NCBI RefSeq assembly: GCF_000153205.1
Contig: NZ_CH672427.1
Location: 2,451 to 66,450 of the forward strand
Source of the DNA: Nitrococcus mobilis Nb-231
Lineage (GTDB): Bacteria; Pseudomonadota; Gammaproteobacteria; Nitrococcales; Nitrococcaceae
Length of the DNA stretch: 64,000 nt
Reading direction: 5' to 3'
The position numbers and the translations under genes are program-made. The first letter of the stretch is position 1. Every line of letters begins with the position of its first letter. A model generated the notes under the pieces. It saw only the letters and a program-made list of their open reading frames with translations, did not search any database and was not told where the DNA came from. Positions 45,186-50,881 of the stretch are shown piece by piece.

Positions 45186-47870
45186 CTAAATAGAACGACG
45201 CTCTACACTAGCGTTGCGATGCGGTGCAACCAGCATCAACACGGCTGGCAACACGATCAGGGTGCAAATCAGAACCCAGCCGAGTGCGATGCTCAGCGTG
45301 CGGCCCAACATCGCTACCCCTGGATCGGAAGCGAGCGCCAGGCTACCGAAGGAACTCATGGTGGTCAGCGCGCTGAACAAGATGGCGGTCGGAGTACTGC
45401 TCAGTAGCACTTGGCCGATGTGCTCGCCACTGCGCCAGCGCAGCACGAAGTAGATGCCATAGGCGACACCCAGACCGACCAGGAGCGGCAGAACGATGAT
45501 GTTGGCCAGATTGAAGGGAATCGCAAGGATTTCCATGCTGCCTACGGTCAACAGTCCGGCGAGCGCCAGTGGGGCTAGGGCCAGTAGCGTATCCCAAGGG
45601 TTGCGCAAGACCACCAGCAATAGGATTAGAATCGCGACGACGGCGATGAGAGAAGCTTGACGAAAGGCCGTGATTACGGCGTCACCTCCCTCCTTCAGCA
45701 ATACCGGCAAGCCGATCGCCTGTGGTCCGACCGCCTGTACTTGATTGACGAAACGGCGCAGCTGCGGAATTTGATTCAGATCCAAGCTCGAAAAAACTTG
45801 CACTCGGGCCCGGCCGTCGGCGGTAAGATAGCGCTCGCGTAGCTCGGCCGGAAGGTTATCGAGGGTGATCTCCTGCGCCTGCAGGGCCAGGCTCAGGCGC
45901 TTCAGCTCGGTGGGCAGTGTACGCATGATGCGCCGCTGCAGTTCCGTGATGTTTTCGGGGCTATCGCCAAAGCGTGTCTGATAAGTATCGATCGCCTGCT
46001 GTAGGCCAGTGAGCGGGGCGGCTAAATCGGCCGCTCCGTGTGCCTGCCAATAGGCCAAGCGAGCGCGAAAGGTATTCAAGGCGGAGTGTAGCTCGGTAAG
46101 GTCGGGGGGACTGTCAGTTGCCGGTGGAACGAGGGTATATGGCGGAATGATAACCGTCAGACTCTCAACTCTAGCAAGCTTATCCGCTTGGTCTTCAGGG
46201 ATGAAACTCGCCAGCGTTACGGCTTGTGCAACGGCTTGCAGCGCGGTGACACGCGCGGCCAGTTGCCGTGCGGCGGTAAGATTGGGCTGCATGAATTCGA
46301 TGGTGTAGAGCGAGTACTCGCTTTCGGTCAGCAGCGAACGTAAGGCGCTGACGGCTTCCGAATTCGGATCCTGTAAACGTATCGGGTCGAAATCGAAATC
46401 GGCCTGTGTTGCCCAAGGGATGGCGGCCAGGCCGGCCAGCACGGCACCAAGGGTGATCCCCCAGGCGCTGCGTTTGAGCAGTAACGGGGCGAAGCCTAGC
46501 CGTTGTTTGAAGTGACTTGCGCGCGGATGAGTGCCCAGCAGTGTGAGCAAGGCGGGTAGCAGCGTGAGATTGGCAAGTAGCGCAATCAGCATACTGGTAC
46601 CGGCGATGATGCCAAGATCGATGATTCCGGCGTAGCTGGTCGGCACGAACGAGTAGAAGCTTGCGGCGGCGGCTACCGCCGCCAGGCTCAGCGCTCCGCC
46701 CATGTTGCGCGCTGATAGGCGCAACGCCGTTGGAAGATTATGCGTGTAGCTGAAGTCCTCACGGTAGCGCATGCAAAATTGAATGCCGAAATCGATGCCG
46801 ATGCCGACGAACAATACCGCGAAAGCAAGGGAGATGACGTTGAACGGCCCGACTATGGCAACGGCGAAAGCCGTTGTCCAGATCAAACCGACGAGCAACG
46901 TCACGAGCGTCGCCAAGACGAACCGCCAGTTACGCAGGCCAACCAGCAAAAGGATAATGATCAGCGTGATTGACAGGATAACGGCGAACGTCATACCGGT
47001 CGTGGCAGTTTGCAGCTGCTCATTGTCGAGCACAGCCTCGCCGGTGAGGCGCACGCGCACTCCGGGCTCGCGGTTCAGCCCTAGGGAGCGCACGGCCCGC
47101 TGGGTGGCGCTGATCGCGTGCTGAAAGGGCTGGGCGGCGTTTGCTTCCGGTCGTGGTTTGGCAAGGATCAGTTGCCGTCGTTCCAGCTGAGCGCGTGGCT
47201 CACCGAACATTAAGCGTTCCCAGGACAGCTGATAATGCGAACCGCTCGACAGTGCGTTGAGTGTCCGGGTGAGCTCCTGGAGAATCGTTTCGAGACCGGG
47301 CAGTGATTCATTGTCGGTGGCTTGGTGATCGAGTGCTTCGCCAAGCAGCGTGAACAGACCTCGCAGGCTGGGATCCTGTGCGAGTCGGGCCAGGAGTGGC
47401 TGGGCCTCAGAGAGCCGCTCGCTGAGCTCGTCCAGCGCTGTTGGCTCGAGGTACAGCAGGCCGTTCTGAGTGAAAAATGCCCCAGCCGTGGGTTGATACA
47501 CTTCTGAGAACAGGTCAGGGTGCTGTTCGAACCAGCGAGTCAACCGCTCGGCGGCCTCCCGCGCAAGTCCACCGGTTTGCCCGTCGACGACCACCACGAT
47601 GTTCTGGCTCAGATTGGGGAAAGCGCGGTTGAACTCGGCGTTCAATTTTTGGAAGGGCAGATCGCGCGAGAGCATACCGGTGGTATCGGGATTGATGGCG
47701 AAGTGGTTGGCGACGAAATACGCCAAACCGGTGGTCGATAGGACCGCGGCCAAGAATACCCACCCCGCCGCGCGGCGGGAGCGGTCGACCAGCCAGCAGA
47801 GACAACGTACGTAGGCAATGCCGGCCGCTCGGATGAGCTGGCCGGTCCGTTGCGGCTTATCCAAGGTCAC
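45186..47870 (-). CDS. hpnN: Hopanoid-associated RND transporter HpnN, 894 aa
   Basis: MMPL/RND-type inner-membrane transporter that moves hopanoids toward the outer membrane. Twelve predicted helices are arranged in two groups, with large periplasmic loops and the duplicated RND layout; VGIGIDFGIQFCMRYRED and GLGVAYGIYFVLRWRSGE are the paired helix-4-type signatures. It starts at GTG 47870, overlapping the stop of the hpnK remnant, so the old translational coupling is preserved. The reading frame is intact although the genes before it have decayed, which suggests the product is still needed. Confidence 0.85.
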   Translation of the reverse strand: MTLDKPQRTGQLIRAAGIAYVRCLCWLVDRSRRAAGWVFLAAVLSTTGLAYFVANHFAINPDTTGMLSRDLPFQKLNAEFNRAFPNLSQNIVVVVDGQTGGLAREAAERLTRWFEQHPDLFSEVYQPTAGAFFTQNGLLYLEPTALDELSERLSEAQPLLARLAQDPSLRGLFTLLGEALDHQATDNESLPGLETILQELTRTLNALSSGSHYQLSWERLMFGEPRAQLERRQLILAKPRPEANAAQPFQHAISATQRAVRSLGLNREPGVRVRLTGEAVLDNEQLQTATTGMTFAVILSITLIIILLLVGLRNWRFVLATLVTLLVGLIWTTAFAVAIVGPFNVISLAFAVLFVGIGIDFGIQFCMRYREDFSYTHNLPTALRLSARNMGGALSLAAVAAAASFYSFVPTSYAGIIDLGIIAGTSMLIALLANLTLLPALLTLLGTHPRASHFKQRLGFAPLLLKRSAWGITLGAVLAGLAAIPWATQADFDFDPIRLQDPNSEAVSALRSLLTESEYSLYTIEFMQPNLTAARQLAARVTALQAVAQAVTLASFIPEDQADKLARVESLTVIIPPYTLVPPATDSPPDLTELHSALNTFRARLAYWQAHGAADLAAPLTGLQQAIDTYQTRFGDSPENITELQRRIMRTLPTELKRLSLALQAQEITLDNLPAELRERYLTADGRARVQVFSSLDLNQIPQLRRFVNQVQAVGPQAIGLPVLLKEGGDAVITAFRQASLIAVVAILILLLVVLRNPWDTLLALAPLALAGLLTVGSMEILAIPFNLANIIVLPLLVGLGVAYGIYFVLRWRSGEHIGQVLLSSTPTAILFSALTTMSSFGSLALASDPGVAMLGRTLSIALGWVLICTLIVLPAVLMLVAPHRNASVERRSI

Positions 47871-48004
47871 GGAAACCGATCCGGGTAATGCCGTGGTCGA
47901 TGAACGTGGCCGCGACCGGTGGGCTTATCAATGCCTCGAGCTCGCGCTGGTGTTGGTAGCCTGGCAATGTTGGCGCAATAAGCGCATGAACTCCGCTCCC
48001 TCGC
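47857..48004 (-). pseudogene. hpnK: hpnK remnant (C-terminal tail of hopanoid-associated deacetylase)
   Basis: Reading minus, one frame gives LPGYQHQRELEALISPPVAA then HGITRIGFRDLG and a stop at 47857-47859, which overlaps the start of hpnN. This fits the C-terminal end of HpnK (ChbG/HpnK-type deacetylase). Only about 40 residues remain and they follow directly on the hpnJ fragment, so a deletion joined the two. Identification rests on a short match plus gene order. Confidence 0.45.
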
Positions 48005-48356
48005 GCAGGCGCAATCCATTGTCGCGCATGACCTTCAAAGTCTTATACGGGACATTTGCTTTGGTGTTGCAGGGCCGGGTGACTCCGAGCTTGCCGAGCC
48101 CGCAGGCGATCTCCTTGGCACACGGTTTGAAATCCCTGGAAGGGTCGTCGTCGGGAAAGACTTCCTTGGCCTGTGGGAAATGCTCCTGGACATCAGTCGG
48201 TGCGTCGATGAGCTTGTTGCCAGGCCGGAGGGCCGTTGGCTGGGCGAGCCAGGTGGGGCACCAGAACGAGCGGATTTCCCAGTTTGCCTGATAGTGGGCG
48301 CCCGCCCCGCCGTCAAAGCCGTCGAATAGCGACGGATGCAAGAGCAGCGTTCTCAC
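48005..48356 (-). pseudogene. hpnJ: hpnJ remnant (hopanoid radical SAM protein, core deleted)
   Basis: It starts at GTG 48356 with RTLLLHPSLFDGFDGGAG and IRSFWCPTWLAQPTAL, the HpnJ N-terminus. After LIDAP it jumps to a late segment, FPQAKEVFPDDD, then LGKLGVTRPCNTKANVPYKT and VMRDNGLRL. The radical-SAM CX3CX2C region that should lie between is absent, so the protein cannot work. The overlap with the hpnI stop (TGA/GTGA at 48353-48356) is still in place. Confidence 0.8.
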
Positions 48357-49041
48357 AGCAATCCCCCTCCCGTTCGGTTGCGAGCGGAACCGTTCGCTTG
48401 AACGTTGAGCCAGCGCCGGCGCCAACGGACGCTGCGGGAACCGAAACCCGCACACCAAGCGGTGAAAGTCAATATATCCCGTATCGGGATCAGCCACGGC
48501 TGCGCTCGTTCGCCGCGCCCAGAAAACTTGTCGACTTCGTAATGTAGCATAAGGCGCATACCCAACGAGAGCCCCCAACAGCAGCAGTAACGGCGGCTGT
48601 CCTCCCCCCAGCGAGCGGGCCGAGCAAGCAGAGCGGTACCGTGTGACTCGGAGCGTTGAGTGCATAGCCTCATGGCTGTAGCCTGCGGATGGTGCGCAAC
48701 CAGCGTACTTCGTGCTGCCACAAGTGGGCGAAATTGGGTTCGGCAACCACGGTTTCGACGAGATAATCCGAGAGCACAGTAGACGAGTTGAAAGCGGGGT
48801 GATTCTGGGCGCAGAAGGCGTATAGGCTCGTATAGAGCTCAGGTTCATCGCCACACAGCGGCTTCAGGACGGTGACCGGGGGTGCGGCCCCACGCTCTTG
48901 CGCAGTCTGGCCGGTTGTTTGACGCGCCAGAACATGGTCGCCATGAGTGCAACACACTGATAACTTATGACCAACAAGCAGATGGCGTAGCGGAGCACAC
49001 ATAAAATTCGGGCGGTAATCGGATCCGCAAGCAGTACCTGG
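48353..49041 (-). pseudogene. hpnI: hpnI remnant (hopanoid glycosyltransferase, deletion and frameshifts)
   Basis: Three frames give parts of HpnI in order: an N-terminal membrane helix (RYAICLLVISYQCVALMATM), then PPVTVLKPLCGDEPELYTSL and FCAQNHPAF. A deletion follows, joining to LSDYLVETVVAEPNFAHLWQ and HEVRWLRTIRRLQP. After another shift comes the C-terminal RDILTFTAWCAGFGSRSVRW. The catalytic GT2 core is missing. The 5' limit is approximate. Divergent from hpnA. Confidence 0.78.
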
Positions 49042-49167
49042 CGCGCCGAGTCGGCGCGTGCGATCGTACAGCTGCTATTGCCGAGTTGGCACGGGCGGCA
49101 CCAATACTCTGAAACAAGCAAAAATAAGATGGGCATTGCAATACCCTGAGGAGGGTGGCGCCGTACG

Positions 49168-50160
49168 ATGGGTCCCACATTACTCACCGGAGCGAGTGGT
49201 TTTGTCGGCTCGGCCGTGTTACGCAGGCTGCAGGCCGCTGGCCATGAGGTGCGTGTCTTGGTTCGGCCGACCAGCAGCCGACGCAACCTCGAGGGGCTCG
49301 ACGTGGAGGTGTTCACCGGCGACCTCACGCAGCCAGCCACGCTCGCACGGGCGGTTCGCGGGTGCCGGGTGCTGTTTCATGCGGCGGCCGATTACCGGCT
49401 CTGGAGCCGTGATCCACGGGCCCTCTATCGCAGCAACGTGGAGGGTACTCGATATATGCTGGCGGCCGCGCTCGAGGCGGGGGTCGAGCGGGTCGTCTAT
49501 ACCAGCAGCGTTGCGACCTTGGGGATCCGATCCGATCATGTGCCCGCCGATGAGGCTACCCCGGCCACGCTGGTCGACATGGTGGGGCACTATAAGCGCT
49601 CGAAGTACTTGGCCGAAGAGGAGGTCAGGCGCTTGATCCGCGCGACTGGGTTGCCGGTGGTAATTGTAAATCCCTCGACACCGATCGGACCACGTGATCT
49701 CAAACCCACGCCGACCGGACGTATGGTACTCGATGCGGCGGCCGGCCGAATGCCGGCCTATGTCGATACCGGACTCAATATCGTGCATGTGGACGACGTG
49801 GCCCATGGGCACTTGCTGGCGCTCGAGCACGGCCAGGTGGGGGAGCGTTATATCCTAGGTGGCACCAACATGAGCCTGCGCGAGATACTGATACAAATCG
49901 CGGCCATCGTCGGCCGGCCGCCGCCGAAGCTGCGCCTGCCGTATAGTTTGGTGCTCCCCATCGCTTATGCAGCCGAAGCCTGGGCTCGGGTCAGCGGCCG
50001 GGAGCCGCGGGTCAACGTGAACGGTGTCCGCATGGCCAAGAAGCACATGTACTTTTCCAGCACCAAAGCCGAGCGCGTACTGGGCTACTCACCGCGGCCC
50101 GCCGAGGCGGCGCTCGAGGACGCGATCCTTTGGTTCAAGGAGCAAGGCTACCTCAAATGA
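49168..50160 (+). CDS. hpnA: Hopanoid-associated sugar epimerase HpnA, 330 aa
   Basis: Extended SDR protein with the NAD(P)-binding TGASGFVGSAV, TGDLTQPATL, FHAAADYRLW, the active-site YKRSK (YxxxK) and NPSTPIGPRDLKPTPTG. The RVNVNGVRMAKKHMYF segment near the end is typical of HpnA. Its exact reaction in hopanoid side-chain formation is not settled. It is divergent from the decayed hpnI-hpnJ-hpnK run and intact. Confidence 0.88.
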   Translation: MGPTLLTGASGFVGSAVLRRLQAAGHEVRVLVRPTSSRRNLEGLDVEVFTGDLTQPATLARAVRGCRVLFHAAADYRLWSRDPRALYRSNVEGTRYMLAAALEAGVERVVYTSSVATLGIRSDHVPADEATPATLVDMVGHYKRSKYLAEEEVRRLIRATGLPVVIVNPSTPIGPRDLKPTPTGRMVLDAAAGRMPAYVDTGLNIVHVDDVAHGHLLALEHGQVGERYILGGTNMSLREILIQIAAIVGRPPPKLRLPYSLVLPIAYAAEAWARVSGREPRVNVNGVRMAKKHMYFSSTKAERVLGYSPRPAEAALEDAILWFKEQGYLK

Positions 50161-50176
50161 TAATTATCGCCAGGCG

Positions 50177-50881
50177 CTATCGAAAGAGCAGTGATCGGCC
50201 TCTGGTCACGAGGCTGGCGATTGTCATGGCGAGCATACCGGTTATGAAAATTCCGTCGAACAGGCCCGCGCCGCCTATCGATGCGACCGGAGTACCCAGG
50301 CTGTGAATATGGTCCAGGTTGAGCAAGTCGCCGCCGATCAAAGTGCCGAGGCTGCCGCAAATGTAAGCGAGCGGTGCGGCATAGATTCTGGACAAGAGTA
50401 AGGCGACCGCCGCGCTCAGCAATGGGGGGGTTAATACGGGCACGGCGATGCCGGTTCCCGGCACAGGGGAAGCCAGCAGCAAAACCACCGCGCCTACCGC
50501 CGTTACGCCGAGCAAGGAAAGAAGATACAGCTTGTTCCTGATCAGCAGATAAATGGAGAGCAGGATCGGAATCAGTGCGCCACCGACATTGATGGCGAGC
50601 ACGGTGCCGGGCGCATTCACGATAACCGGTAGGGTGTATTCCATCCCGAAGAAGAGGGTTTCGTGCTCTGCCAGATACCCCCTTGATGGGATGTGCGCGA
50701 GTGGAATGTTGATATAACTGCCGAGCCACGACAAGAGCAGCATTATGAATAGATAACGCCGATTGACGGCGGCGCGGGAGTGGGTGTTCGGCAGGACTCT
50801 GACGTCGATTAGGATGAGCACGGCGATGAGCGCACCAAAAAGCAAATATAGGAACTCGGGAGCGACTCGGAAATAATCCAT
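50177..50881 (-). CDS. DUF1614 family membrane protein, 234 aa
   Basis: About six or seven transmembrane segments. The N-terminal LFGALIAVLILIDVRVLPNT, the NAPGTVLAINVGGALIPI segment and the C-terminal IGGDLLNLDHI with SIGGAGLFDGIFITG are typical of DUF1614, a family of unknown function. It converges with hpnA, 16 bases between stops, and lies 71 bases downstream of the MscS-type gene, so it may be co-transcribed with it. Confidence 0.75.
   Translation of the reverse strand: MDYFRVAPEFLYLLFGALIAVLILIDVRVLPNTHSRAAVNRRYLFIMLLLSWLGSYINIPLAHIPSRGYLAEHETLFFGMEYTLPVIVNAPGTVLAINVGGALIPILLSIYLLIRNKLYLLSLLGVTAVGAVVLLLASPVPGTGIAVPVLTPPLLSAAVALLLSRIYAAPLAYICGSLGTLIGGDLLNLDHIHSLGTPVASIGGAGLFDGIFITGMLAMTIASLVTRGRSLLFR

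Follow-up and report, generated by a model that had tools for sequence, protein, structure and literature searches.

Bacteriohopanetetrol (BHT) cyclitol ether and its relatives serve as environmental biomarkers. In the described pathway, BHT is converted to BHT-N-acetylglucosamine by HpnI, to BHT-glucosamine by HpnK and finally to BHT cyclitol ether by HpnJ (PMC12583986). Across the Alphaproteobacteria, hpnI, hpnJ and hpnK are either all present or all absent, with two exceptions and without relation to phylogeny, and the whole hpn cluster has been described as easily lost (PMC12583986). Acidithiobacillus sulfuriphilus and related genomes carry an intact hpnI-hpnJ-hpnK-hpnN block, with 72-79% identity in HpnJ, and the intact arrangement is therefore regarded as the older one. 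The same three genes (TIGR03472, TIGR03471 and TIGR03473) adjoin hpnN, as in Acidithiobacillus, in the window analyzed here (64,000 nucleotides of Nitrococcus mobilis Nb-231, contig NZ_CH672427.1, positions 2,451 to 66,450; genome G000). However, all of the G000 copies are broken, whereas an intact set is found in another genome of the same genus (G004; JAGFJL010000045.1, a “Nitrococcus mobilis” metagenome-assembled genome). This region is very probably the pseudogenized hpnI-hpnJ-hpnK segment of an ancestral locus in which hpnA diverged from hpnIJKN: selection on the segment lapsed, deletions and point mutations followed, and the flanking genes stayed under purifying selection. An earlier sequence-only reading of the window had named the three genes and the broken branch (the HpnI, HpnK and HpnJ steps on BHT), both of which agree with the published pathway (PMC12583986).

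The remnants lie on the minus strand between two intact genes. On one side is hpnN (45186-47870, minus strand), encoding an 894-aa hopanoid transporter (TIGR03480, 936 bits against a cut-off of 752; dN/dS of 0.17 against G004), and on the other is the divergent hpnA (49168-50160, plus strand), encoding a 330-aa hopanoid-associated sugar epimerase (TIGR03466, 518 bits against a cut-off of 368; dN/dS of 0.15). To our knowledge, the function of HpnA has not been established. A 234-aa predicted membrane protein (50177-50881, minus strand) adjoins hpnA; it is conserved in all five Nitrococcus species and matched no NCBIfam family. The G004 locus is complete, with hpnI (391 aa), hpnJ (471 aa), hpnK (297 aa) and hpnN in the same order and hpnA divergent, and the G000 remnants are collinear with it at 85-91% DNA identity, which is not chance similarity. 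Aligning BLAST blocks of the G000 locus against the G004 locus revealed four internal deletions. The first took 500 bp out of hpnI, two more of 549 and 474 bp lie within hpnJ, and the last, of 823 bp, begins at the end of hpnJ and extends to hpnK codon 259. Block overlaps at these junctions measure 6, 1, 7 and 8 bases, respectively. Deletion between short direct repeats could leave such overlaps, although the exact repeats are blurred by 10-15% divergence. hpnI also shows point lesions relative to G004: a lost start, one nonsense codon and four 1-bp indels.

The 5′ part of hpnI (48775-49028, minus strand; HMM match and alignment) retains codons 1-86, with its start changed from GTG to GCG and two 1-bp deletions. 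It meets the 3′ part (48353-48780, minus strand; TIGR03472 partial match and alignment), comprising codons 251-391 and the stop with two 1-bp insertions and the nonsense codon, at the 500-bp deletion junction (48775-48780, minus strand). The hpnI stop still overlaps the hpnJ start (GTGA). The hpnJ remnant (47965-48356, minus strand; TIGR03471 partial match and alignment to G004) keeps its GTG start at 48356 and codons 1-55, ∼238-301 and ∼457-471, interrupted by the junctions of the 549-bp (48193, minus strand) and 474-bp (48005-48011, minus strand) in-frame deletions. At the 823-bp junction (47965-47972, minus strand) the hpnJ stop and hpnK codons 1-259 are lost, and what remains of hpnK (47857-47972, minus strand; 91% identical to G004 hpnK codons 260-298) is its last 38 codons and stop, which overlap the hpnN start. 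The decayed block had been placed at 47857-49041, a good fit to an hpnK stop ending at 47857 and an hpnI start-equivalent codon at 49028, and both gene overlaps, hpnI-hpnJ and hpnK-hpnN, are preserved as had been proposed. That each gene retains recognizable ends holds only loosely, since hpnK lacks its start and first 259 codons, hpnJ lacks its stop and the hpnI start is mutated. Decay by internal deletion was likewise part of the picture, the point lesions in hpnI being the other part. A promoter and terminator scan of positions 47700-49300 gave no more predictions than shuffled sequence does.

A functional HpnI, HpnJ or HpnK was defined as a full-length match above the curated cut-off that also carries the catalytic motifs. 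HpnI scored 82 and 31 bits in pieces (cut-off 310), and deletion of codons 87-250 removed both its DxD (codon 143) and DD (codon 236) motifs. HpnJ scored 126 bits (cut-off 577.6) over model positions 2-55 and 239-300, its CxxxCxxC motif (G004 codons 206-213) falling inside the 549-bp deletion. For HpnK, a whole-genome search returned 23 bits (cut-off 232.6) over model positions 240-281 only, the missing codons 1-259 including the DD (codon 22) and HxxxHFH (codon 139) motifs. These scores, set beside those of hpnN and hpnA, bear out the sequence-only reading that the three genes are decayed with their catalytic cores lost while their neighbors are intact. Intact second copies, sought as that reading advised, did not turn up: no HpnI, HpnJ or HpnK above cut-off was found by profile search of the G000 assembly. 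A copy hidden in a gap is formally conceivable with nine contigs, although completeness is given as 100%. The locus thus combines ordered similarity with disabling lesions, relaxed selection (below) and no functional copy in the nine contigs, as a pseudogene formed by decay should. One feature counts against decay, namely a 142-codon open frame (47928-48356, minus strand) that survives from hpnJ because both hpnJ deletions (549 and 474 bp) are in frame. Two in-frame deletions would arise by chance about 1 time in 9, and the frame has preserved both its start and its overlap with hpnI without acquiring a stop, all of which would suit a retained functional mini-protein. Yet the leftover is without the radical SAM cysteine motif, shows a dN/dS of 0.40 (higher than that of its neighbors), ends in out-of-frame hpnK sequence and is kept in no relative; we give this possibility almost no credence.

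The locus was read from an assembly, and the overlap of BLAST blocks by 1-8 bases at the junctions might be expected if genes intact in the organism had been collapsed during assembly or sequencing. Such overlaps are, however, too short for assembly collapse, which would create neither the point lesions nor the raised dN/dS of the retained pieces, and in three other assemblies the locus is damaged in different ways. Misassembly, which had been named as a possible refutation, is therefore very unlikely indeed.

Decay of the remnants is further indicated by their rates of change. Between G000 and G004, dN/dS was 0.35 in the remnants (391 codons) against 0.16 in hpnA and hpnN together (Fisher P = 1 × 10−4). 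If functional hpnIJK genes are taken to evolve about as fast as hpnA and hpnN, neutral evolution fits about one-third of the G000 branch (three-point branch lengths; 95% bootstrap interval, 12-64%). The genes therefore remained under selection for part of the time after the G000 lineage became separate, and inactivation followed.

Loss of hpnIJK is not peculiar to G000, as working copies are gone from four of the five sequenced Nitrococcus species. The remnants in G002 (JAUILK010000002.1; dN/dS of 0.58) contain frameshifts and stops, and their deletions lie at other positions and are not shared. In G001 (JAKDMK010000086.1) and G003 (JAKDMQ010000026.1), a common deletion begins just past the upstream membrane-protein gene, removes hpnA, hpnI and hpnJ and ends within hpnK at about codon 207; no HpnA above cut-off was found elsewhere in either genome. 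In both (loci L040 and L039, respectively), hpnN now follows a DUF-type membrane-protein gene in the same direction. A 14.3-kb alignment gave the tree ((G002,G004),G000),(G001,G003), with two alternative topologies rejected (AU P = 0.0002 and 0.012, the latter for a G000-G002 sister pair). With the two hopanoid loci only, that pairing stood at AU P = 0.145, and it was settled once the rpoB region was included; the tree excludes hpnG, dxs and hpnB, which were not recovered in all five species. With an intact G004 placed among lineages that have lost the genes, three independent losses are the simplest history of the genus.

In a rival account, hpnIJK were lost once, either in the genus ancestor or in that of G000 and G002, and G004 then reacquired an intact set. 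This account draws some support from the lack of working genes in four of five species and from the search of 59 genomes of the genus, family, order and class, in which HpnJ exceeded the cut-off only in G004. The G004 genes are nevertheless in place and in conserved order, and at silent sites they differ from the G000 remnants as much as the flanking genes differ between the two genomes (0.247 and 0.248, respectively). Furthermore, deletion end points are not common to G000 and G002, a sister relationship of those two was rejected, and the G000 remnants have changed too slowly for neutrality along the whole G000 branch. Reacquisition is accordingly highly doubtful, and independent decay in three Nitrococcus lineages is the history to which these genomes point. 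“Coordinated” decay, as the loss had first been called, is apt in that one functional block was lost, but several separate events were responsible rather than one.

The hpnK stub is present in all four decayed genomes. Its possible role as a functional remnant was rejected, as its dN/dS between G001 and G003 is relic-like (0.44, against 0.19 for hpnN; P = 0.016); its overlap with the hpnN start may be why the stub has been kept.

The sequence of events would then be as follows. Selection on the BHT-glucosamine and BHT-cyclitol-ether branch probably lapsed in the G000 lineage after its split from the sequenced relatives; hpnI, hpnJ and hpnK would then have been eroded by deletions between short repeats and by point mutations, with hpnN and hpnA held by purifying selection meanwhile. 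Ordinary decay of a known, dispensable pathway branch is well supported. It is unlikely, though conceivable, that composite-headgroup hopanoids have been selected against in Nitrococcus, such that the repeated removal of hpnIJK represents an adaptive change in membrane lipids and not mere loss. The absence of hpnA and hpnR besides hpnIJK in one clade (G001 and G003) bears on that possibility.

The rest of the hopanoid pathway is in place. Nitrococcus mobilis has already been reported to possess squalene-hopene cyclase (PMC8026999), and a second G000 locus encodes squalene synthase, shc, hpnG, dxs, ispH, hpnH and hpnB. A search of the genome for shc, hpnH and hpnG had been recommended; all three are present, as is hpnB. 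With the transporter gene hpnN, G000 holds the core genes of a hopanoid producer, HpnG scoring slightly below its cut-off (175.5 against 187.1 bits), and shc, hpnH and hpnN are found in all five species. The genes dxs and ispH, for isoprenoid precursor supply, lie within the hopanoid cluster beside shc, hpnG and hpnH (L094:7702-10923). Strong squalene-hopene cyclase matches were confined to Nitrococcus among the 59 relatives, the other family and order genomes searched giving none or weak partial ones; either Nitrococcus acquired the trait or its neighbors lost it. An intact hpnR, encoding the hopanoid C-3 methylase, lies outside the window (G000:C1:1571662-1573119; 897 bits against a cut-off of 650). 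G002 and G004 carry hpnR as well, whereas neither G001 nor G003 gave a match above cut-off; on gene content, the genus may make 3-methylhopanoids. G000 is predicted to make C30 hopanoids and polyols of the BHT type, which may be 3-methylated, but no glucosamine or cyclitol-ether forms. From the state of hpnIJK, we infer that G000 makes no BHT-glucosamine or cyclitol ether, and HpnN would now export simpler hopanoids, BHT and C30 hopanoids among them. No earlier description of the hpnIJK remnants was found in the literature searched; a survey of nitrifier lipids and genes (doi 10.1111/gbi.12484) fell outside that scope and may bear on the lipid prediction.

Three independent losses of the headgroup branch, with shc, hpnH and hpnN kept throughout the genus, make the trait patchy between close relatives, and such patchiness matters for the reading of cyclitol-ether hopanoids as biomarkers. 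It also makes Nitrococcus a natural comparison set for the role of the hopanoid headgroup. In G001 and G003, hpnA has gone along with hpnIJK although shc, hpnH and hpnN remain, which suggests that HpnA is dispensable there for basic hopanoid synthesis. As in the Alphaproteobacteria (PMC12583986), the three genes are retained or lost as a set while hpnH and hpnN are kept. Unlike the Alphaproteobacteria, where loss was inferred from absence (PMC12583986), Nitrococcus shows intermediate stages of decay and three independent losses, so that the all-or-none loss of hpnIJK is here caught in progress within a gammaproteobacterial genus of nitrite oxidizers.
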